DNA of 39,731 nt. It comes from an uncultured Alistipes sp. GTDB lineage: Bacteria > Bacteroidota > Bacteroidia > Bacteroidales > Rikenellaceae. Of the stretch, positions 9,606 to 37,441 are shown piece after piece. Below the pieces are notes generated by a model. That model searched no databases and was not told the origin of the DNA. It saw nothing but the letters and a program-made list of their open reading frames with translations. The position numbers were made by a program, and so were the translations under genes. How positions within the stretch are numbered: position 1 is the first letter of the stretch; every line of letters starts with the position of its first letter. The DNA is taken from the NCBI GenBank assembly GCA_944321965.1, contig CALUNH010000020.1, positions 1 through 39,731 on the forward strand, in the 5' to 3' direction.

Positions 9606-9771
9606 AATGGTCCCAGTGTTGAAGGTTTGCACAATCGTTCCGGTCGGGGACGGGTCTCTCCTGCAGGGTCGAAGCCATGCGGGGGCGGCACGCATCCGTG
9701 TCCGGTTCTTATGTAGTAAAAAGTAAAAAATGTTTCGGCGTTGCCCTGACATCCCGCGGGTTCCGGCCTGT

Positions 9772-9950
9772 TTGGCAAGGCAGGTCTTCTGACTCGCTCC
9801 CGCCGCACGCCTTCCCGTCCCCGAGGGGACAGTGGCAAAGAGTGTGCAGCCGTTTTCGGAGCTTACAGCTACGGGCATAGTCCCTGATTTGCACAGGAGT
9901 TCCCTTTTGATCCCGGGCCGGCAGCCGCCGGCTGGGAACCTTGCTCGGCA
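9772..9950 (-). promoter_or_regulatory. Cobalamin riboswitch controlling nrdDG
   Basis: Read on the minus strand this is a full cobalamin aptamer (RF00174 type): an opening GGTTCC, a variable P2 hairpin, AAAAGGGAA, GTGCAAATCAGGGACT, GCCCGTAGCTGTAA, the B12-box core GCCACTG, a GGGAAGG element, and the closing GAGTCAGAAGACCTGCC, whose CCTTGC pairs with the opening GCAAGG. About 165 bases separate it from the nrdD ATG. By family knowledge, adenosylcobalamin binding turns the downstream genes off. Confidence 0.95.
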
Positions 9951-9952
9951 AC

Positions 9953-9960
9953 AAAGATAG
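9953..9960 (-). promoter_or_regulatory. -7 element of the nrdDG riboswitch promoter
   Basis: TATCTTTG on the minus strand lies immediately upstream of the aptamer. A partial -33 (CTTG, 9982-9979) lies 18 bases further upstream. Confidence 0.65.
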
Positions 9961-17891: not shown

Positions 17892-18008
17892 CGGGTCATG
17901 ATCCGTTTTGGGTCACAGCCCGGATTCCGTGCGGGGGAGCAGCATGTCGAGAGGCGTTCGGACTCGCTTGGGACCCCATTCTCCGCAGGGTTTTCGGGCA
18001 GACAGGCG

Positions 18009-18183
18009 ACGGCAGGTCTTCTGACTCGTTACCGTTCCGGCGCCTTCCCGTCCCGAGGCGGGGGACAGTGGCCAAGAGTGCCGGAACGCGGCATGTAACT
18101 CACAGCAGCGGGAACTGTTGCCGATTCACACGGCATTCCCTTTTAATCCGGGGCATCCGTTCGGATGCCGTTCGGAACCGTTG
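18009..18183 (-). promoter_or_regulatory. Cobalamin riboswitch controlling the B12-uptake operon
   Basis: On the minus strand: GGTTCC, a perfect GGCATCC/GGATGCC P2 hairpin, ATTAAAAGGGAA, GTGTGAATCGGCAAC, GCTGCTGTGAGTTA, the core GCCACTG, GGGACGGGAAGGC and the closing GAGTCAGAAGACCTGCC. It is the same aptamer class as the one ahead of nrdD. About 115 bases separate it from the first gene, the BtuG-like one at 17891. Confidence 0.95.
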
Positions 18184-18188
18184 CGCGA

Positions 18189-18196
18189 CAAAAGTA
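18189..18196 (-). promoter_or_regulatory. -7 element of the B12-uptake operon
   Basis: TACTTTTG on the minus strand fits the consensus and lies directly upstream of the riboswitch aptamer. The -33 element is unclear. Confidence 0.6.
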
Positions 18197-18239
18197 CGCT
18201 TTTTTCCGCGTAACACCATAAGGTTTCGGGCAAAAAGGT

Positions 18240-26925: not shown

Positions 26926-27105
26926 GTGCACAAAACGGAAGAAGCCAACCGCGGGAAATCGGTATTTTTGTTTGTAAAGGGATTTTTGGGGGTGGGGACG
27001 GTCGGGAAACGGGGGCCGATGCTTTTCCGGAACGGGGCCCGGAGGGGCTTGGGCTCCTGTTCCGGCGGGGCGTTGACGGAATGTTGAAAAAAAATGGGTA
27101 AAAGT

Positions 27106-27137
27106 TTTGCAGGGGCGGCGAAAAACCCCTATATTTG
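27106..27137 (+). promoter_or_regulatory. Promoter of the pyrimidine operon
   Basis: TTTG (27106-27109), 20 bases, TATATTTG (27130-27137): a full Bacteroidota consensus. Transcription should begin near 27144, leaving about 165 bases of leader before pyrC. The 170 or so bases upstream of it (26935-27105) show only a stray -7-like TATTTTTG at 26963 and no gene. Confidence 0.85.
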
Positions 27138-27163
27138 CTGACAATTACAGCGGTCCGAATCCT

Positions 27164-27271
27164 ATGAATCGTAACCCCCACATCCCAATGGCACAGAAGT
27201 TCTGGCAGCAGGATTATTGGTCGGGGTCTCAATTTTCGACGGGGTTCGGCATTATTGTTTTATTAGGGTAA
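27164..27271 (+). CDS. Leader peptide of the pyrimidine operon (candidate)
   Basis: A 35-codon ORF begins about 20 bases after the predicted transcription start (MNRNPHIPMAQKFWQQ...) and ends ...GFGIIVLLG with TAA at 27269-27271. The stop codon lies inside the 5' arm of an intrinsic terminator. The last codons are very U-rich (ATT ATT GTT TTA TTA), and the peptide is rich in aromatic residues with U-containing codons (TTC, TGG, TAT, TTT). This matches the E. coli pyrL/pyrBI attenuator layout, in which slow transcription at low UTP lets the ribosome reach and block the terminator. Translation of this ORF is inferred, not shown. Confidence 0.6.
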   Translation: MNRNPHIPMAQKFWQQDYWSGSQFSTGFGIIVLLG

Positions 27272-27295
27272 CTGTTTCGGTTGCCCTATTTTTTT
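27264..27295 (+). terminator. Attenuator (intrinsic terminator) ahead of pyrC
   Basis: TAGGGTAAC (27264-27272) pairs with GTTGCCCTA (27280-27288), nine pairs with one T-G, around a seven-base loop. Seven T residues follow. It sits inside the operon leader, 15 bases before the pyrC ATG, so it must be conditional: reading through it is required for any expression from this promoter. Confidence 0.8.
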
Positions 27296-27309
27296 ATGCG
27301 ACGGAGCCG

Positions 27310-28587
27310 ATGAAGACATTTTACGAGAACGCCGAGATTTATCGCGGGGGCCGTTTCGAGCGGGGGCGGCTGGTCGTGGAGGCGGGCCGTGTGGTTGCGG
27401 ATGCGACGCCGGGGCCGGAGGACCGTGTCATCGACCTCGGGGGGCTGTACCTTGTTCCGGGGCTGGTGGACGTGCATGTCCACCTGCGCGAACCGGGCTT
27501 TCCGCAGAAGGAGACCATCGCCACGGGAACGGCCGCCGCGGCCCGCGGAGGCTGTACGACGGTCTGCTCGATGCCGAACCTGAACCCGGCACCCGATACG
27601 CCGGAACACCTCGAACGGCAGCTGGAGATCATCCGCCGCGACGCCGTGGTGCGGGTGAAGCCCTACGGGACGATCACCCTCGGGCAGCGCGGGTGCGGTG
27701 AACTGGCCGACTTTGCGGCGCTGGCTGCGGAGGTCGTGGGCTTCTCGGACGACGGCCGCGGGGTGCAGTCGGCCGAACTCATGGAGGCGGCGATGCGGCG
27801 TGCCGCGGCGGTCGGGAAGCCGATCGTGGCGCACTGCGAGGTCGACGAACTCCTCCGCGGAGGGTATATCCACGACGGCGACTACTGCCGCGCCCACGGC
27901 CATCGGGGCATCTCGTCGGAGAGCGAGTGGCATCAGGTCGAGCGCGATATCGAACTGGCCGCGAAGACCGGCTGCCAGTACCATGTCTGCCACGTCTCCA
28001 CGAAGGAGAGTGTCGAGCTGGTGCGCCGGGCGAAGGCGCGGGGCCTGCGCGTGAGCTGCGAGACGGCGCCGCACTACCTGCTGCTGTGCGACGAGGACCT
28101 GCAGGAGGAGGGGCGTTTCAAGATGAACCCGCCGCTCAGGAGCCGCGCCGACCGCGAGGCGCTGCTCGCAGGCCTCCAGGACGGCACGATCGAGGTGATC
28201 GCCACGGATCACGCCCCGCATACGGCCGAGGAGAAGTCGCGCGGGCTGGCCGGGAGCGCCATGGGTATCGTGGGCATCGAGACGGCCTTCCCGCTGCTCT
28301 ATACGGGGTTGGTGAAACCGGGACTCCTTTCGCTGGAGCGGCTCGTGGAGCTGATGTCGACGTCTCCGCGGCGGATCTTCCGCCTCGAAGGGGGCCTCGA
28401 AGCGGGTCAGGAGGCGGATTTCACGGTGCTGGACCTCGGGGCGCGCTGGACGATCGATCCGGAGGAGTTCCTTTCGAAGGGCCATGCCACGCCGTTTGCC
28501 GGCCGGGAGGTCGAGGGACGTGCGGTGCTCACGGTGGTGGGCGGCCGTGCGGTTTACGATACGCTGACAACGAATTCAATCAGATAA
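27310..28587 (+). CDS. pyrC: Dihydroorotase
   Basis: PyrC cyclises N-carbamoyl-aspartate to dihydroorotate. The 425-residue amidohydrolase is the class I type, with the metal site His56-X-His58 in VDVHVHLREPGFPQKE, SMPNLNPAPDTPE, a histidine in VAHCEVDELL, CHVSTKESVEL, and the catalytic ATDHAPH around Asp300. It is first in the operon although it catalyses the third step. The ATG at 27310 is the first in-frame start after the attenuator; a longer reading would pass through the terminator hairpin. Confidence 0.95.
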   Translation: MKTFYENAEIYRGGRFERGRLVVEAGRVVADATPGPEDRVIDLGGLYLVPGLVDVHVHLREPGFPQKETIATGTAAAARGGCTTVCSMPNLNPAPDTPEHLERQLEIIRRDAVVRVKPYGTITLGQRGCGELADFAALAAEVVGFSDDGRGVQSAELMEAAMRRAAAVGKPIVAHCEVDELLRGGYIHDGDYCRAHGHRGISSESEWHQVERDIELAAKTGCQYHVCHVSTKESVELVRRAKARGLRVSCETAPHYLLLCDEDLQEEGRFKMNPPLRSRADREALLAGLQDGTIEVIATDHAPHTAEEKSRGLAGSAMGIVGIETAFPLLYTGLVKPGLLSLERLVELMSTSPRRIFRLEGGLEAGQEADFTVLDLGARWTIDPEEFLSKGHATPFAGREVEGRAVLTVVGGRAVYDTLTTNSIR

Positions 28588-28611: not shown

Positions 28612-29703
28612 ATGAAAGCTTTTACGAAAAAAATTGTCTTGGAGAATGGCCGCGAGTTCTACGGATACGGGTTCGGATCCGACCGCGAGGCCATCAACGA
28701 GATCGTCTTCAATACCTCGATGGTGGGGTACCAGGAGATCATGTCCGACCCGTCGTACACGGATCAGATGGTGGTGATGACCTACCCGCTGATCGGCAAC
28801 TACGGTATGACGGACGACGACTATGAGACGAAGACGCCGACCATCGGCGGGATGATCGTGCGGGAGTACAACGACCTTCCTTCGAACTTCCGCTACACGA
28901 AGACGCTGAACGAGGTTTTCGAGGAGTATGACATTCCGGCCATTTCGGGGGTCGATACGCGGGCGCTGACGCGGATCATCCGCGACGAGGGGAGCCAGAA
29001 AGTGATCATCACCGATGCCGCGACGCCCCGGGAGGAGGCTCTGGCCCGCATGAAGGCCTACGAGATGCCGCACGACATGGTTGCGCGGGTGAGCTGCAGG
29101 AAACGCTGGATGTCGCGCGTGGCCAACCACAAGTACGACGTGGTGGCCATCGACTGCGGCATCAAGTACAACATCGTGCGTCTGTTGAACCGCGTGGGCT
29201 GCAACGTGATCGTGATGCCGTACAACTCGACGCTGGAGGAGGTCCTGGCCTTCCGTCCGGACGGCATCGTGCTGTCGAACGGCCCCGGCAACCCGGCGGA
29301 CGTGACTCCGGTGATCGAGTTGGTGAAGCAACTGCGGGGCCGTCTTCCGATCTTCGGGATCTGCATGGGTCACCAGCTGATTTCGCTGGCCTACGGGGCG
29401 AAGACCTTCAAGATGAAGTTCGGACACCGGGGCGCGAACCATCCGGTGAAGAATCTGATGACGGGAAAGCTGGAGATCACGAGCCAGAACCACAGCTATG
29501 CGGTGGATATCGACTCGCTGAAGGGCACGGGACTGACGCTTACGCACGTCAACCTGCTGGACGGCACGGCCGAAGGTGTGGAGTGTGCCGCGGAGGGCGT
29601 CTTCTCGATGCAGTACCATCCGGAGAGCGCTTCGGGTCCTCAGGACAGCGCCTATCTGTTCAATAAGTTCACCAAAATCATGGAGGAGTACAAACATGCC
29701 TAA
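28612..29703 (+). CDS. carA: Carbamoyl-phosphate synthase, small (glutaminase) subunit
   Basis: CarA hydrolyses glutamine and passes ammonia to CarB for carbamoyl phosphate, shared by pyrimidine and arginine synthesis. The 363-residue protein has the CPSase N-domain ([28 protein letters not shown]) and a class I glutamine amidotransferase domain with Cys251 in FGICMGHQ and the His336/Glu338 pair in YHPES. It starts 25 bases after pyrC and overlaps carB by eight bases. Confidence 0.97.
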
Positions 29704-32700
29704 GAGAAAAGATATCAGGAAGGTGATGGTGATCGGGTCGGGCCCGATCGTGATCGGTCAGGCTGCGGAGTTCGACTATGCGGGCACGCAGGCGTGCCTG
29801 GCGCTCAAGGAGGAGGGTTACGAGGTGATCCTCGCCAATTCGAATCCGGCCACCATTATGACCGACACGCACATTGCGGACAAGGTCTACATGGAGCCGC
29901 TGACGCTGGAGTACGTGGCGAAGATCATCCGCTACGAGCGTCCGGACGCCATTGTCCCGGGCCTGGGCGGACAGACGGGTCTGAACCTGGCGGTGCAGCT
30001 GGCCAGGAAGGGCATTCTGAAGGAGTGCCAGGTGGAGATCCTGGGCACGTCGTTCGACTCGATCGAGCAGGCCGAGGACCGCGAGCTGTTCAAGGAACTG
30101 TGCGAGTCGCTGGGCGAGCCTGTTCTTCCTTCGGAGATTGCCACGTCGGTCGAGGAGGGCGTGGAGGTTGCCGCGCGGATCGGCTATCCGGTGGTGCTTC
30201 GTCCGGCCTTCACGCTGGGCGGCACGGGCGGCGGCTTTGCCGACGACGAGGCTCAGCTGCGCGAGATGATGCGCAACGGACTGTCGCTTTCGCCGGTGCA
30301 CCAGGTGCTCGTCGAGAAGAGCATCAAGGGCTACAAGGAGATCGAGTTCGAGGTGATGCGCGACCACAACGATACGGCGATCAGCATCTGCTGCATGGAG
30401 AACATCGACCCGGTGGGCATCCATACGGGCGACTCGATCGTCGTGGCCCCGAGCCAGACGCTGACCAACAAGGAGTTTCAGATGCTGCGCGACTCGGCGT
30501 TGAAGATCATCCGGGCATTGAAGATCGAGGGCGGCTGCAACGTGCAGTTCGCGCTGGACCCGCTCTCGTTCAAGTACTACCTGATCGAGGTGAACCCGCG
30601 CGTGTCTCGTTCGTCGGCGCTGGCGTCGAAGGCTTCGGGCTACCCGATTGCGCGCGTGAGTGCGAAGATCGCCGTGGGTCTGACCCTCGACGAGATCCGC
30701 ATCGCCAACACGCCGGCGTCGTTCGAGCCGACGCTGGACTACGTGGTGACGAAGGTGGCGCGCTTCCCGTTCGACAAGTTCTCGGACGCCTCGAACAAGC
30801 TGGGCACGCAGATGAAGGCCACGGGCGAGGTGATGTCGATCGGCCGCACGATGGAGGAGTCGCTGTTGAAGGCGGTTCGTTCGCTGGAGACGGGCGTCTG
30901 CCACATCTACCACAAGAAGTTCGACTCGTGGACGAACGACGACCTGCTGGACTACATCAAGATCGGCACGGACGACCGCCTCTACGCCATTGCGCAGCTG
31001 ATCCGCGGGGGCGTGGACCTGGCGCTGATCTACGACAAGACGAAGATCGACATGTTCTTCCTGGAAAAGTTCAAGAACATCGTGGAGTTCGAGAAGGTGG
31101 TCCGCGCGCATCCGATGGACGTCGAGACGCTGCGCGAGGCCAAGCGGATGGGCTTCAGCGACCAGTATATCGGCCAGTTGTGGGGGCTTTCGCAGCATGA
31201 GATGTACCGCCTGCGGGAGAAAAACGATATTTTCCCGGTCTACAAGATGATCGACACGTGTGCGAGCGAGTTTTCGTCCTACGTTCCCTACTTCTACTCG
31301 ACCTACGAGGAGGAGAACGAGTCGAAGGTGAGCGACAAGAAGAAGATCATCGTGCTGGGTTCGGGCCCGATCCGCATCGGCCAGGGCGTGGAATTCGACT
31401 ACTCGACGGTTCACGCGATCTGGTCGATCCGCGAGGCGGGCTACGAGGCGATCATCATCAACAACAACCCGGAGACCGTCTCGACGGACTACACGACGAG
31501 CGACAAGCTCTACTTCGAGCCGCTGACGGTCGAGGACGTGATGAACGTCATCCACCTGGAAAAGCCGCAGGCGATCGTGGTGTCGCTGGGCGGACAGACG
31601 GCGATCAACCTGGCGGAGCCGCTGGCAGAGCTGGGGGTTCCGATCATCGGTACGGACTGCGAGGCGATCAGGAATGCCGAGGACCGCGGGTGCTTCGAGC
31701 GGATCATGGAGGAGCTGGGGATCCCGCAGCCGGAGGCCGAGGCGGTGACGGACATCGAGGCGGGCGTGAAGGCCGCATCGCGGATCGGCTATCCGGTTCT
31801 GGTTCGTCCGAGCTACGTGCTGGGCGGGCGTGCGATGCAGATCGTCTCGAACGAGGAGCGTCTTCGCCACTACCTGCAGACGGCCGTGGAGGTGAACGTG
31901 GACCAGCCGGTGCTGGTGGACCGCTACATCATGGGCAAGGAGCTGGAGGTCGACGCGATCTGCGACGGGAAGGATGTCTTCATCCCGGGCATCATGGAGC
32001 ACGTCGAGCATACGGGTATCCACTCGGGCGACTCGATCAGCGTCTACCCGACGTTCAGCGTGAGCCGGGCGGCCAAGGAGAAGATCATCGACTATACGGT
32101 GCGTCTGGGTCTTCGGATCGGCATCGTGGGACTCTATAACATCCAGTTCATCGTGGCGGGCGACGACGACGTGTATGTCATCGAGGTGAATCCGCGGTCG
32201 TCGCGCACGGTTCCGTTCCTGTCGAAGTCGACGGGGGTTCCGATGGCGCACATCGCCACGCAGGTGATCCTGGGCAAGAAGCTCCGCGAGCTGGGTTACA
32301 CGCAGGTGTACGGTGCGGAGAAGGAGCGCTGGTACGTGAAGGCTCCGGCGTTCTCGTTTGCGAAGATCCGGGGCATGGATTCGTACCTTTCGCCGGAGAT
32401 GAAGTCGACGGGCGAGGCGATCGGTTACGACGACAAGCTGACGCGGGCCCTGTACAAGGCGCTGCAGGCGACGGGGATGCACGTTTCGAATTACGGGACG
32501 GTGTTCGTGACGATTGCCGATCAGGACAAGCCTCAGGCGCTTCCTCTGGTGAAGCGTTTCTACGACCTGGGCTTCAACGTCGAGGCGACGACGGGCACGG
32601 CGGAGTTCCTGCGCGAGCACGGGATCCGCACGCGGACGCGGCGCAAGCTGAACGAGGGTAGCAACGAGATCATCGACGCCCTTCGCCAGGGACATATCAG

Positions 32701-32878
32701 CTATGTAATCAATACGATCGACATCAACCAGCACAACACGCGCCTGGACGGTTACGAGATCCGGCGCACGGCCGTAGAGAACAACGTGACGGTCTTCACG
32801 GCGCTGGAGACGGTGAAGGTGCTGCTGGACGTGCTGGAGGAGATCACGCTGCGGGTCTCGACGATCGACGCGAAATAA
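29696..32878 (+). CDS. carB: Carbamoyl-phosphate synthase, large subunit
   Basis: The 1060-residue synthase phosphorylates bicarbonate and then carbamate. It consists of two homologous ATP-grasp halves: the first opens [23 protein letters not shown], the second [20 protein letters not shown] at about residue 550. Each has the GGQTxxNLA segment and the ATP-grasp core ([24 protein letters not shown]). The C-terminal 120 or so residues form an MGS-like regulatory domain ([24 protein letters not shown]...). The start at 29696 follows CarA by overlap, and [10 protein letters not shown] is the family N-terminus. The long opposite-strand ORFs here are codon-bias shadows. Confidence 0.97.
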
Positions 32879-32892
32879 ATTCCGCAAGAGCC

Positions 32893-33633
32893 ATGTACAA
32901 GAAGGGAATCTATCGGATCGAAGCGAACGAGCCTTTGACGGAGACGGTGTGGCGGATGCGGCTTGCGGGCGACACGCAGTGGATCACGGCTGCGGGACAG
33001 TTCGTGAACATCGCGCTGGAGGGGAAGTACCTGCGTCGTCCGATTTCGGTGTGCGACTGCGACGAGGGCACGCTCACGCTGATCTACAAGGTCGTGGGTG
33101 AGGGCACGGAGCAGATGAGCCGCCTGGAGGCGGGTGCGGAGCTCGACCTGCTGACAGGTCTCGGGAACGGTTTCTCGACGAACAACAATGCGCGCCGGCC
33201 GTTGCTGGTCGGCGGGGGCGTGGGAGTTCCTCCGCTCTACAACCTGGCTCGCCGGCTGCTTGCCGAAGGGAAGCCGGTGGAGGTGGTGCTGGGCTTCAAC
33301 ACGGCTTCGGAGGTCTTCTACGAGGAGGAGTTCCGGGCCCTGGGGTGCCACGTGACGGTGGCCACGGCCGACGGTTCGCGGGGCGTCGAGGGCTTCGTGA
33401 CGACGGCCATCGCCGCGGCGGGCCTGAATTTCGACTACTTCTACGCCTGTGGTCCGCTTCCGATGCTTCACGCGCTCTACAATGCCGTGGAACAGGACGG
33501 ACAGCTGTCGTTCGAGGAGCGCATGGGGTGCGGATTCGGGGCCTGCATGGGTTGCACGTGCAAAACGAAATACGGCAACAAACGCATCTGCCGGGAGGGT
33601 CCGGTGCTGCAGAAAGGAGAGATCATATGGTAG
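32893..33633 (+). CDS. pyrK: Dihydroorotate dehydrogenase electron-transfer subunit
   Basis: PyrK passes electrons from NAD(H) via FAD and a [2Fe-2S] cluster to PyrD, making a class 1B enzyme. The 246-residue protein has the ferredoxin-reductase fold (RRPISVCDCDEGTLTLIYKVVG, GLGNGFS, LLVGGGVGVPPLY) and the C-terminal cluster cysteines 213, 218, 221 and 233 (CGFGACMGCTC...ICREG). It overlaps pyrD by seven bases, consistent with an obligate complex. Confidence 0.95.
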   Translation: MYKKGIYRIEANEPLTETVWRMRLAGDTQWITAAGQFVNIALEGKYLRRPISVCDCDEGTLTLIYKVVGEGTEQMSRLEAGAELDLLTGLGNGFSTNNNARRPLLVGGGVGVPPLYNLARRLLAEGKPVEVVLGFNTASEVFYEEEFRALGCHVTVATADGSRGVEGFVTTAIAAAGLNFDYFYACGPLPMLHALYNAVEQDGQLSFEERMGCGFGACMGCTCKTKYGNKRICREGPVLQKGEIIW

Positions 33634-34574
33634 AGAATCAGACGATACGGGATGGCGCCGCACTGCAGGCCGACACCTCGGTCGAACTGTGCGGCCTGCG
33701 GCTGGACAATCCGGTGGTTCCGGCCAGCGGGACGTTCGGCTATGGCTATGAGTTCAAGGATTTCTACGACATCAACATCCTGGGTTCGTTCTCGTTCAAG
33801 GGGACGACGCGCGAGCCGCGCTTCGGGAACCCGACGCCGCGCATCGCCGAATGTACGGCGGGGATGATCAACTCCGTCGGGCTTCAGAATCCGGGCATCG
33901 ATGCCGTGATCCGGCATGAGTTGCCGCGCCTGCGGCACTTCTTCCGCAAGCCGGTGATCGCCAACATTTCGGGCTTTTCGGTCGAGGAGTACGCCTACTG
34001 CTGCGAGCGGATCGACAAGCAGGAGCAGGTCGGGATCATCGAGGTGAATGTCTCGTGCCCGAACGTGCGGCACGGGGGCATGTCGTTCGGCAACAGTCCG
34101 GAGACGGCCGCGGAGGTGACGCGGGCGGTGAAGGCCGTGACGACGAAACCGGTCTTCGTGAAGCTTTCGCCCAACGTGACGGACATCGTTTCGATCGCCC
34201 GGGCGTGCGAGGAGGCGGGGGCCGACGGCATCTCGCTGATCAATACGCTGCTGGGAATGCGCATCGACATCCGCCGTCGTCGTCCGGTGATAGCCAACAC
34301 GATGGGCGGTTTTTCGGGTCCTGCGGTCTTTCCGCTGGCCCTGCGGATGGTCTACCAGGTCTCGAAGGCGTGCCGGATCCCGGTCATGGGGTGCGGGGGC
34401 GTGCAGTCGGCGCGCGACGTGATCGAGATGATGATGGCGGGCGCCACGGCCGTGCAGGTGGGCGCCGCGAATCTGGTGAACCCCTACGCCTCGAAGGAGA
34501 TCGTCGAGGCGCTGCCCGGGGAGATGCGGCGGCTGGGCATCGAGCGCCTGACGGACATAATAGGTATAGCATAG
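33627..34574 (+). CDS. pyrD: Dihydroorotate dehydrogenase, class 1B catalytic subunit
   Basis: The 315-residue FMN enzyme oxidises dihydroorotate to orotate. The class 1 active-site base is Cys144 in NVSCPNVRHGG. Other markers are PASGTFGYG, the FMN-binding KLSPNVTD, NTLLGMRIDI and GCGGVQSARDVIEMMMAGA. The adjoining pyrK makes class 1B (NAD-linked) certain over the fumarate or quinone types. It uses the ATG at 33627 inside the pyrK 3' end. Confidence 0.96.
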   Translation: MVENQTIRDGAALQADTSVELCGLRLDNPVVPASGTFGYGYEFKDFYDINILGSFSFKGTTREPRFGNPTPRIAECTAGMINSVGLQNPGIDAVIRHELPRLRHFFRKPVIANISGFSVEEYAYCCERIDKQEQVGIIEVNVSCPNVRHGGMSFGNSPETAAEVTRAVKAVTTKPVFVKLSPNVTDIVSIARACEEAGADGISLINTLLGMRIDIRRRRPVIANTMGGFSGPAVFPLALRMVYQVSKACRIPVMGCGGVQSARDVIEMMMAGATAVQVGAANLVNPYASKEIVEALPGEMRRLGIERLTDIIGIA

Positions 34575-34585
34575 TATCGAAGAAT

Positions 34586-35290
34586 ATGGAACGAGACGTC
34601 ATTATTGCCTGCGATTTCAAATCCGCAGAGGACACCTTCCGCTTCCTCGACCTCTTCCGGGACGAGGCGCGCAAGCCCTTTCTGAAGATCGGCATGGAGC
34701 TTTACTATGCCGAGGGCCCGTCGATCGTGCGGGAGATCAAGCGCCGGGGGCACCGGATCTTCCTCGACCTGAAGCTGCACGACATTCCCAATACGGTGAA
34801 GAAGGCGATGGCGGTGCTGTCGCGTCTGGACGTAGACATGTGCAACGTCCATGCCGCGGGGACGATCGAGATGATGCGGGCGGCGCTGGAGGGGCTCACG
34901 CGCGAGGACGGCACGCGGCCGCTGCTGATTGCCGTGACGCAGCTGACCTCGACGAGCGAGGAGCGGATGCAGCGCGAACTGCTGATCGGGGCTTCGATCG
35001 ACGACACGATCGTCAAGTATGCGCAGAATACGCGCGAAGCCGGGCTGGACGGCGTGGTCTGCTCGCCGCTGGAGGCGGGGATGGTCCACGCGGCGTGCGG
35101 CGCGGATTTCCTGACCGTAACGCCGGGCGTTCGGTTCGCCGACGGCGACGTGGCGGATCAGGTTCGAGTGACGACTCCGGCGCGGGCGCGGGAGATCGGT
35201 TCGAATTTTATCGTCGTCGGTCGCCCGATCACGGCGGCGGCGGATCCCGTGGCGGCCTACCGGCGCTGCGTGGCGGAGTTCGTCGGATAG
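34586..35290 (+). CDS. pyrF: Orotidine 5'-phosphate decarboxylase
   Basis: PyrF decarboxylates OMP to UMP, the last step of the pathway. The 234-residue protein is the short type 1 enzyme with the catalytic Asp-X-Lys-X2-Asp array in FLDLKLHDIPNTV, the N-terminal IIACDFKSAED, and the phosphate-binding FIVVGRPITAAADP. Many Bacteroidota carry a longer type 2 PyrF, so the short E. coli-like form is worth noting. It begins 11 bases after pyrD. Confidence 0.95.
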   Translation: MERDVIIACDFKSAEDTFRFLDLFRDEARKPFLKIGMELYYAEGPSIVREIKRRGHRIFLDLKLHDIPNTVKKAMAVLSRLDVDMCNVHAAGTIEMMRAALEGLTREDGTRPLLIAVTQLTSTSEERMQRELLIGASIDDTIVKYAQNTREAGLDGVVCSPLEAGMVHAACGADFLTVTPGVRFADGDVADQVRVTTPARAREIGSNFIVVGRPITAAADPVAAYRRCVAEFVG

Positions 35291-35344: not shown

Positions 35345-35605
35345 ATGAAACCCGTAAAACTGTTTTATCTGAAGACGTGCCCCTTCTGCAAGAAGGCGCT
35401 GCGTTACATCGAGGAGGCGAAGGCGGCCCATCCGGAGCTGGAGGCGGTGGAGATCGAGATGATTGAGGAGTCGGAGGAGCCTGCGGTGGCCGACCAATAT
35501 GATTACTACTATGTGCCGACCTTCTATGTCGGCGGGGAGAAGGTCCACGAGGGTGGCATCTACCCCGACGAGGTGGAGGCGGTGCTGCGCCGGGCGCTGG
35601 AGTAG
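35345..35605 (+). CDS. Thioredoxin/glutaredoxin-like protein with CPFC motif
   Basis: The 86-residue protein is a single small thioredoxin-fold domain: KLFYLKTCPFCKKALRYIEE with redox Cys12 and Cys15, and the cis-proline segment YYVPTFYVGG. CPFC is intermediate between glutaredoxin (CPYC) and thioredoxin. It lies inside the pyrimidine operon, 54 bases after pyrF and 104 before pyrE. It could keep a cysteine of the pathway reduced (PyrD, PyrK or the PyrB zinc site are candidates) or only hitchhike. No partner is shown by sequence. Confidence 0.85.
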   Translation: MKPVKLFYLKTCPFCKKALRYIEEAKAAHPELEAVEIEMIEESEEPAVADQYDYYYVPTFYVGGEKVHEGGIYPDEVEAVLRRALE

Positions 35606-35709: not shown

Positions 35710-36342
35710 ATGGAAAAAGCTATTGCCAGGGATTTGCTGTCGATCGGTGCGGTTTTTCTGCGCCCGGAACAGCCGTTTACATGGGCCAGCGGCATCAAGA
35801 GCCCGATCTATTGCGACAACCGTCTGACGCTGACGGCTCCGGAGGTCCGCAAACACGTTGAGGCGGGTCTTGCGGAGATCGTGCGCACGAAGTACCCCGA
35901 AGCGGAGGTGCTGATGGGGACCTCGACGGCCGGGATTGCCCATGCGGCCATCACGGCGACGATTCTCGACCTGCCGATGGGCTACGTGCGTTCGGGGTCG
36001 AAGGACCACGGGCGCGGCAACCAGATCGAGGGCCGGTTGGAAAAGGGCCAGAAGGTGGTGGTGATCGAGGATCTGATCTCGACGGCGGGGTCGTGCATCG
36101 AGGTGGTGAACGCCTTGCGCGAGGCGGGTGCCGAGGTGCTGGGCGTGGCATCGATCTTCACTTACGGGATGAAGAAGGGCCTCGACCGGCTGAAGGAGGC
36201 GAACGTCGTGAACTACAGCCTTTCGAATCTCGACGCGCTGGTGGAGGTTGCGGCCGAGGAGGGTTATATCAAGCCCGAGGACAAGGAGCGTCTGCTGCAG
36301 TTCCGCGACAATCCGTCGGACGAATCGTGGATGAACCGTTAA
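35710..36342 (+). CDS. pyrE: Orotate phosphoribosyltransferase
   Basis: PyrE joins orotate to PRPP to form OMP. The 210-residue type I PRTase has the PRPP loop [18 protein letters not shown] and the N-terminal [19 protein letters not shown] orotate-binding segment, plus the catalytic flexible loop [15 protein letters not shown]. It precedes pyrB by 10 bases. Confidence 0.96.
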
Positions 36343-36352
36343 AAACGAGGAT

Positions 36353-37441
36353 ATGATGCGACATTTGATAGACCCGACGGATCTGACGGTGCAGGAGACC
36401 GAGCAGATCGTGGCCCTGGCGGAGGATATCATCGCCAACCGGTCGAAATACAGCGAAGCGTGCAAGGGCAGGAAACTGGCGACGCTCTTCTATGAGCCTT
36501 CGACGCGCACGCGGCTGAGTTTCACGTCGGCGATGCTCGAACTGGGCGGACAGGTGATCGGCTTTTCGGACGCCAACTCGTCGTCGGTATCGAAGGGCGA
36601 GACGGTGGCCGACACGGTTCGTGTGATCCGCTGCTTTGCGGACATCATCGCCATGCGCCACTTCAAGGAGGGAGCGCCGCTCGTGGCGTCGCAGTATGCG
36701 GAGGTCCCGGTGATCAACGCCGGGGACGGGAGCCACTCGCACCCGACGCAGACGCTGACGGACCTCCTGACGATCAAGCGTGAGAAGGGGCGTTTCGACC
36801 ACATGACGATCGGTTTCTGCGGTGACTTGAAGTTCGGCCGTACGGTGCACTCGTTGATCAAGGCGCTGTCGCGCTACGAGGGGATCAAGGTGATCCTGAT
36901 TTCGCCCGAGGAGTTGCGTCTGCCGGACTACATGCTGCAGGAGATGCAGGCCAACTCGAAGCTCACGTTCCGCGAGGTGCGCACGATGGAGGAGGTGACG
37001 CCCGAGCTGGACATCCTCTACATGACGCGCGTACAGAAGGAGCGTTTCCTGGACGAGGAGGAGTTCGACCGCGTGAAGAACAGCTTCGTGCTGAATCCCG
37101 AGAAGCTGCGCACGGCGAAGGCGGACATGACGATCCTGCATCCGCTGCCGCGTGTGAACGAGATCACGCGGGCGGTGGACAACGACCCGCGTGCGGCCTA
37201 CTTCCGGCAGGTCGAGAACGGCAAGTTCGTGCGTATGGCGCTGATTCTGACGCTGCTTCGGTGGGCGGACGAGAACCGGCCGTTCGCGCACACGCCGGTT
37301 TTCAACGAGGAGTACATCGTCAACGAGCTGGTGTGCCCGAACCGGCGCTGCATTTCGGCGACGGAGGATGTGGACCAGCTGTTCCGCCGGATGCCCGACG
37401 GCACGTGCCGTTGCGCCTACTGCGAGGCGAAGGCGCGGTAG
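36353..37441 (+). CDS. pyrB: Aspartate carbamoyltransferase with fused PyrI-like zinc module
   Basis: PyrB condenses carbamoyl phosphate with aspartate, the committed step. The 362-residue protein has the whole catalytic chain: carbamoyl-phosphate loop [12 protein letters not shown], the lysine loop [27 protein letters not shown], and the [11 protein letters not shown] segment. At about residue 310 a catalytic chain would end; here about 50 more residues follow with Cys328-X4-Cys333-X20-Cys354-X2-Cys357 (VCPNRRCIS...CRCAYCE). This matches the C-terminal zinc domain of PyrI (Cys-X4-Cys-X23-Cys-X2-Cys), the part that grips PyrB in E. coli. The PyrI nucleotide-binding domain is absent, so CTP/ATP control is probably lost. 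Confidence 0.95.

Follow-up and report, generated by a model that had tools for sequence, protein, structure and literature searches.

A candidate UTP-sensing attenuator with a dedicated leader peptide ahead of the pyrimidine operon of Alistipes

UTP-sensitive attenuation that depends on the coupling of transcription and translation is known from enterobacteria. The rph-pyrE attenuator of E. coli, the subject of work by Bonekamp in 1984, is reportedly UTP-modulated and coupled. In Firmicutes, the PyrR attenuator controls the whole pyr operon by premature termination and needs no leader ORF. For Bacteroidota, we know of no direct test of transcription-translation coupling, and the papers listed by a literature search showed none. 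Coupling across the pyrBI leader of E. coli is described as necessary to prevent termination in an excerpt of PMC5021804. Within Bacteroidota, small ORFs in long 5′ untranslated regions are reported for B. thetaiotaomicron (PMC7366714, in excerpt) and leader-peptide attenuation ahead of amino-acid operons for F. psychrophilum (PMC9723704, in excerpt). A search of the open full-text literature, with most subscription papers outside its scope, yielded no description of a pyr attenuator in Bacteroidota among the titles and abstracts listed, in keeping with the earlier note on this DNA, which knew of none of such a form.

The window analysed here is a stretch of 39 731 nucleotides from an uncultured Alistipes species. 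The promoter, the 35-codon leader with U-rich last codons, the stop codon in a terminator stem and the pyrC gene that follows, on which the earlier note had built its proposal, are all present in the sequence at the following positions:

27106–27109 and 27130–27137, + strand: promoter of Bacteroidota type, TTTG and TATATTTG with a 20-nt spacer (sequence, promoter scan)
27164–27271, + strand: leader ORF MNRNPHIPMAQKFWQQDYWSGSQFSTGFGIIVLLG, 35 codons plus TAA, with its ATG at 27164 (sequence, relatives, pN/pS)
27250–27263, + strand: U-rich tract CATTATTGTTTTAT in the final leader codons, adjoining the hairpin; putative UTP-sensitive pause zone
27264–27295, + strand: intrinsic terminator with an 11-bp stem, a 3-nt loop and seven T (scan, covariation), made up of 5′ arm 27264–27274, loop 27275–27277, 3′ arm 27278–27288 and T-tract 27289–27295
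27269–27271, + strand: leader stop TAA, within the terminator 5′ arm
27310–28587, + strand: pyrC, dihydroorotase, first gene of the operon, with its ATG at 27310 (NCBIfam)
28612–35290, + strand: carA, carB, pyrK, pyrD and pyrF (NCBIfam)
35345–35605, + strand: glutaredoxin/thioredoxin-like ORF of 86 amino acids between pyrF and pyrE (domain match)
35710–36342, + strand: pyrE (NCBIfam)
36353–37441, + strand: pyrB with a fused C-terminal PyrI_C zinc domain (Pfam PF02748)

The complete operon that had been proposed behind the leader stands as eight pathway genes, all on the + strand (pyrC, carA, carB, pyrK, pyrD, pyrF, pyrE and pyrB, by NCBIfam), to which the glutaredoxin-like ORF has to be added as a ninth. 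That ORF is also found in another Rikenellaceae locus (L104), where it is 62% identical. In three other genomes (G062, G081 and G310), the carA frame stays open for 1450 to 1471 amino acids, which suggests, from sequence length, a fusion of carA and carB.

Promoter-like and terminator-like sites at the leader were found again by a scan, and a TAnnTTTG-like box is present in 77 of the 77 rows of the main set of relatives. Transcription is expected to start near 27142 if this box lies at −12 to −5, its position in an excerpt of a Flavobacterium study (PMC9723704). The gene upstream of the leader encodes a ZIP transporter on the − strand and is divergent, so the terminator belongs to the pyr transcript and is not the end of the upstream gene. 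A terminator scan of the window found one site against a mean of 1.4 in shuffled sequence, a count that is not above shuffles by itself; since a single terminator is no more than chance would give, its significance is taken from conservation in relatives. Pfam returned no match for the 35-codon leader, and Rfam returned no relevant family for it at the gathering score or at E up to 10, the best low match being a Burkholderia sRNA model (22.6 of 43 bits), which we took to be a match to the terminator and rejected. The only Rfam families above gathering score in the window are two cobalamin riboswitches on the − strand, both away from the leader (9762–9958 and 17994–18197; 108.8 and 107.9 bits).

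Loci for comparison were gathered by PyrC searches and by a search with the leader peptide. With an E limit of 10, the latter gave matches in 46 of the 200 family genomes; chance must account for many of them, although several strong matches are located 41 nt ahead of pyrC. Seven of the loci L001–L141 were dropped (no PyrC match, or less than 150 nt upstream) and non-Bacteroidota loci were kept apart; filtering gave 88 distinct upstream sequences. The detector found no hairpin in four of these (L024, L093, L097 and L149), the last of which has the layout and was lost to the detector's distance filter alone. A further seven of the remaining 84 were set aside as coming from other taxa or having no such layout (L074, L096, L104, L114, L116, L127 and L138); two of them, L104 and L114, are Rikenellaceae by title, and the L104 leader does fit, being identical to that of L266.

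Of the 77 distinct relatives that were left, all but two, or 75, have an ORF of 25 codons or more (start codon ATG in 70, GTG in 5) with a stop that begins between −11 and +12 nt relative to the first base of the terminator 5′ arm; the window's own stop is at +5. If all excluded rows are scored as misses, the count is 75 of 88. Many of the 77 rows are close relatives, so the 43 similarity clusters give a better count: 41 show the layout, where dinucleotide shuffling predicts 5.8. The exceptions among the 77 sequences are L158 and L161, both of the Alistipes genus, each with an ORF that passes through the terminator, as E. coli pyrL does. With the same detector, the layout was found in 18 of 20 later sequences from the same genus (g1) and 16 of 20 from the sister genus (g60), or 15 of 17 and 15 of 19 when four repeats of earlier rows are removed. 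Five of the later misses lacked a detected hairpin, four of them from the sister genus (by eye, longer-looped or bulged hairpins); in another, L285, the detector misplaced the promoter and the ORF fits by eye. Three additional loci of the sister genus (L249 to L251) all fit. On a simpler test common to all groups, Bacteroidota loci were positive in 26 of 35 cases and non-Bacteroidota loci in 4 of 45, and all 13 loci with an unrelated PyrC type were negative. Two loci (L024 and L279) carry this PyrC without such a leader. Across the sequences compared, the leader element is conserved and not a product of chance, and the stop at the stem, whose conservation the earlier note had proposed as a check, is kept throughout most of the group.

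The hairpin itself covaries, another of the proposed checks: compensatory changes were seen at eight of nine consensus pairs in 49 sequences chosen from the 75. When 28 leaders of the stop-in-stem subgroup were folded whole, no pair showed a double change, the terminator being nearly invariant there, and no antiterminator with compensatory support was predicted. A second helix in subgroup A2 (columns 68–92) showed one-sided changes only and is not claimed. An RNA model of tail and hairpin, whose input included the sequence of the window itself, found one strong copy in the window's own genome (72.8 bits; next 22.3 bits, E 0.94; 150 of 441 candidates scored). No pyrimidine gene was recognised by eye in the DNA around three of the five weaker matches.

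We then considered the leader ORF as a coding sequence, comparing pairwise pN/pS with shifted-frame controls in place of codon-position entropy, which for 14 ungapped leaders was 0.84, 0.77 and 0.98 and is a weak test where distant leaders are mixed. In frame, pN/pS was 0.47, against 1.00 and 1.09 in the shifted frames (17 non-overlapping pairs), the pattern of synonymous change that had been anticipated for a true leader frame. The body of the leader gave 0.46 in 57 ungapped pairs, with pS 0.40 and pN 0.19, while the last six codons had pS 0.08 and pN 0.11. On this evolutionary evidence the leader ORF is probably translated, and its last six codons are conserved for something other than the protein sequence. 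Conservation of the peptide body exceeds the needs of a ribosome guide, which allows for a role specific to the peptide.

Selection on the last codons acts instead on nucleotides. Across the 43 clusters, T makes up 54% of the 20 nt that immediately precede the hairpin, C 8%, A 22% and G 15%, compared with 30% T, 23% C, 22% A and 25% G in the stretch from −80 to −30; in 35 of the 40 later sequences the same 20 nt are 56% T and 8% C. T replaces C while A does not rise, so the tail is not a matter of general A+T richness. The window's tail spells Ile-Ile-Val-Leu-Leu as ATT ATT GTT TTA TTA. Across the operon's ORFs (with approximate starts for carB and pyrD), TTA serves for 0 of 265 leucines, ATT for 12% of isoleucines and GTT for 9.8% of valines. 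Of the 43 clusters, 40 have a YTGTYT or YTATTTT core, compared with 9 of 43 for a control stretch, and across relatives this core falls in each of the three reading frames (23, 8 and 7). A comparison of two loci illustrates the point: L006 and L007 differ by an indel that alters the reading frame, with the result that the peptide ends in ILFY instead of IIVLLG and the TAA is replaced as stop codon by a TAG at the stem base, so that the stop position and the U-run are kept and the amino acids are not. Taken together, the sequence patterns show that the U-rich tail is selected as RNA or DNA, at the nucleotide level.

These observations bear on two other explanations of the locus. The leader could be a small-protein gene with its own terminator, pyrC being unregulated and served by another promoter or by leaky read-through. 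Purifying selection on the peptide body would fit, as would two further + strand promoter-like sites that an E. coli-type scan placed within the operon (34012 and 34534). The same scan, which is blind to Bacteroidota promoters as such, found no + strand site between 27136 and 34012, however, and the frame shift at the C-terminus that separates L006 from L007 leaves the stop at the stem; we regard this explanation as highly improbable. An equally slim chance attaches to attenuation by a charged tRNA in the manner of trp or his, for which arginine is the candidate amino acid because carAB lies within the operon. Some leaders do have three or more Arg codons, but arginine makes up 7.2% of leader residues against 6.9% in the operon proteins and ranges from 0 to 6 per leader in 41 leaders. 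The end residues vary (IIVLLG, ILFY, VTTVYFC) while the nucleotides stay U-rich, and the features of trp- and his-type leaders are absent: there is no run of codons for a single amino acid and, in the 28 leaders folded whole, no alternative antiterminator with compensatory support.

The favoured reading is that the leader is a UTP-sensing attenuator of the whole pyrimidine operon, acting through coupling between RNA polymerase and ribosome, and we consider it probable on the sequence patterns described above. Transcripts would begin near 27142, and ribosomes would translate the 35-codon leader. When UTP is scarce, the polymerase would slow in the U-rich tract (27250–27263) and allow the ribosome to catch up; the polymerase would then move on with the ribosome at or near the stop codon (27269–27271), covering the 5′ arm (27264–27274). 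With this arm covered, the terminator could not fold and pyrC to pyrB would be transcribed. With ample UTP, the polymerase would pass the tract before the ribosome arrives, the hairpin would form and transcription would terminate at the T-tract. Pausing, UTP dependence, ribosome occupancy and the sign of the response are what we infer from the E. coli cases.

A different signal is conceivable. The polymerase and ribosome might be synchronised by a fixed sequence pause, for example a NusG-stimulated pause at a T-rich motif in the non-template strand, in which case the leader would sense translation capacity or growth state and not UTP. Within the 45 nt preceding the hairpin, YTGTTT occurs in 34 of 43 clusters, against 6.1 expected when these 45 nt are shuffled, and TTNTTT in 26 of 43, against 16.6 expected; the E. 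coli type is given as restricted primarily to gammaproteobacteria in an excerpt of PMC12288461, a point that also favours this explanation. TTNTTT was set aside as an exact pause motif, its enrichment being mild. On the other hand, the whole 20-nt tract is rich in T and poor in C, beyond the needs of one hexamer, and the later leaders have YTGTTT in just 15 of 35 and TTNTTT in 19 of 35. A UTP signal is also the economical reading, because the operon makes UTP. We judge a fixed pause unlikely, and retain UTP-sensing attenuation as the working interpretation. If this is correct, UTP-sensitive coupled attenuation extends to a major gut phylum, and one such switch governs the complete pyrimidine pathway. 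With the stop-at-stem geometry, a small reporter would also suffice for a direct test of coupling in Bacteroidota.

Control by PyrR, or by another protein- or ligand-bound RNA attenuator, is a further alternative, raised by the relation of the operon to those of Firmicutes. Homologous operons in loci titled Clostridia or Oscillospiraceae have a similar order (pyrC-carA-carB, pyrC-carB or pyrC-pyrK-pyrD-pyrF-pyrE) with PyrE 70 to 83% identical, and a PyrR-site-like RNA lies at the pyrC start in three of seven Clostridia loci, the seven having been picked by eye for a PyrR-like motif or a similar leader and the three scoring 38 to 44 bits where 54 bits is the gathering score. In 20 loci, some shared with the seven, no PyrR site RNA reaches the gathering score, and a home-made pattern for the site, which matched three of 45 loci from outside Bacteroidota and none of the 35 from within, is too rare to be relied on. 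Against PyrR control of the Alistipes operon, a profile search of 121 genus genomes, their assemblies partly incomplete, gave none over the cut-off, whereas 6 of 14 control genomes exceeded it; the profile is one we take to be that of PyrR (output name PRK05205.1-5). Sub-threshold matches were limited to one in G226 (37.5 bits) and two weak ones in the window's own assembly, which is 85% complete and has none over the cut-off. The PyrR binding site RNA (RF00515) had no match in 27090–27340 at E up to 10. The case against PyrR-type control made in the earlier note is thus borne out, and we think regulation of this kind very unlikely here.

We analysed the distribution of the operon's PyrC type in relation to feedback on aspartate transcarbamoylase (ATCase). 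At E up to 1e-90, 190 of the 268 family genomes have this PyrC, and just two of the 22 genera are represented: the window's genus (Alistipes, g1), in which 13 genomes lack it, and the sister genus (g60). Seven PyrC-bearing Bacteroidota loci are by title outside Rikenellaceae or have no family name (L074, L093, L096, L097, L116, L127 and L138). One of these, L074 from Porphyromonas canoris, has this PyrC together with carA and carB and a U-rich leader that runs through the terminator; used as a query at E up to 1e-100, its PyrC matched 4 of 393 order genomes, all Rikenellaceae. In a PyrC tree with midpoint root, Bacteroidota and other rows fall largely apart (2 changes) and L074 is nested among Alistipes with moderate support. 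As the root is a midpoint, the tree does not fix the direction of transfer.

The window's PyrB carries the PyrI_C zinc domain only (PF02748, 33.6 bits against a cut-off of 23.4), with no match to the nucleotide-binding PyrI domain, and no full PyrI was matched in its own genome (85% complete). Of 200 family genomes, 64 have a full or nearly full PyrI, counted as a match that begins at profile position 5 or lower, and 49 of them are over the cut-off; in this survey G180 and G131 are partial. The operon's PyrC type occurs in none of the 64. Sixty belong to other genera and four to Alistipes (G018, G199, G202 and G211), and these four are all among the 13 Alistipes genomes without this PyrC. Other listed PyrI matches in the two genera cover the C-terminal part of the profile only, including one in a genome without this PyrC (G220), and 16 Alistipes genomes have no PyrI match at E up to 0.001. 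It may be that attenuation makes up for the loss of ATCase allostery, and relatives with and without full-length PyrI offer a ready comparison of whether control of genes can replace feedback on an enzyme. A broader scenario, which we put forward tentatively and consider doubtful, is that a UTP-sensing leader took over a cross-phylum operon, replacing both PyrR control and ATCase allostery, and that the YTGTTT pause element may need NusG plus low UTP.

Elsewhere in the order, three of 29 carA loci have a terminator-like hairpin upstream, none with an ORF ending there. Separately, in nine of 28 other Bacteroidales pyrB loci (L184, L195, L197, L200, L203, L204, L205, L208 and L211), the tail of an upstream protein ends 6 to 14 nt before a terminator-like hairpin ahead of pyrB; the tails are similar, most with MGYG at or near the start. 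This arrangement resembles rph-pyrE and could be an attenuator or a plain gene end.

How, then, does the Alistipes leader compare with the described systems? It has what UTP-sensitive coupled attenuators have: a terminator between the promoter and the first pyr gene, a U-rich tract upstream of the hairpin and an ORF that reaches the terminator, its translation argued from evolutionary evidence. Like Firmicutes PyrR attenuators, it would control a whole pyr operon by premature termination, and some homologous Clostridia operons have site-like RNA; those attenuators need PyrR and its RNA site, neither of which was found here in the searches described. The likeness to pyrBI is closer, comprising a dedicated short leader peptide, a U-rich tract, an intrinsic terminator and pyrimidine genes. 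Contrary to what the earlier note had held, however, the layout is not the same as that of pyrBI: in E. coli MG1655 the pyrL ORF continues past the terminator to a stop 25 nt beyond the 3′ arm, whereas the Alistipes stop sits in the stem, inside the 5′ arm, and the U-rich tract of pyrL is farther upstream, whereas that of Alistipes abuts the stem. U-rich leaders that run through the terminator are found in L074, L116 and L138, which means that both geometries occur in Bacteroidota. In rph-pyrE, as here, the stop is near the 5′ arm of the hairpin (within approx. 10 nt; in E. coli BL21 the rph stop precedes this arm of the pyrE attenuator by 8 nt), the terminator has a T-tract and the next gene follows 39 nt on. 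The differences are that the coupled ORF there is a full enzyme gene, for RNase PH, while here it is a dedicated leader of 35 codons, and that one pyr gene is controlled there and, as proposed, the whole pathway here. The comparative tests support the attenuator interpretation and refine its geometry towards rph-pyrE: judged by its sequence, the Alistipes leader matches the rph-pyrE geometry, with a dedicated peptide like that of pyrBI.
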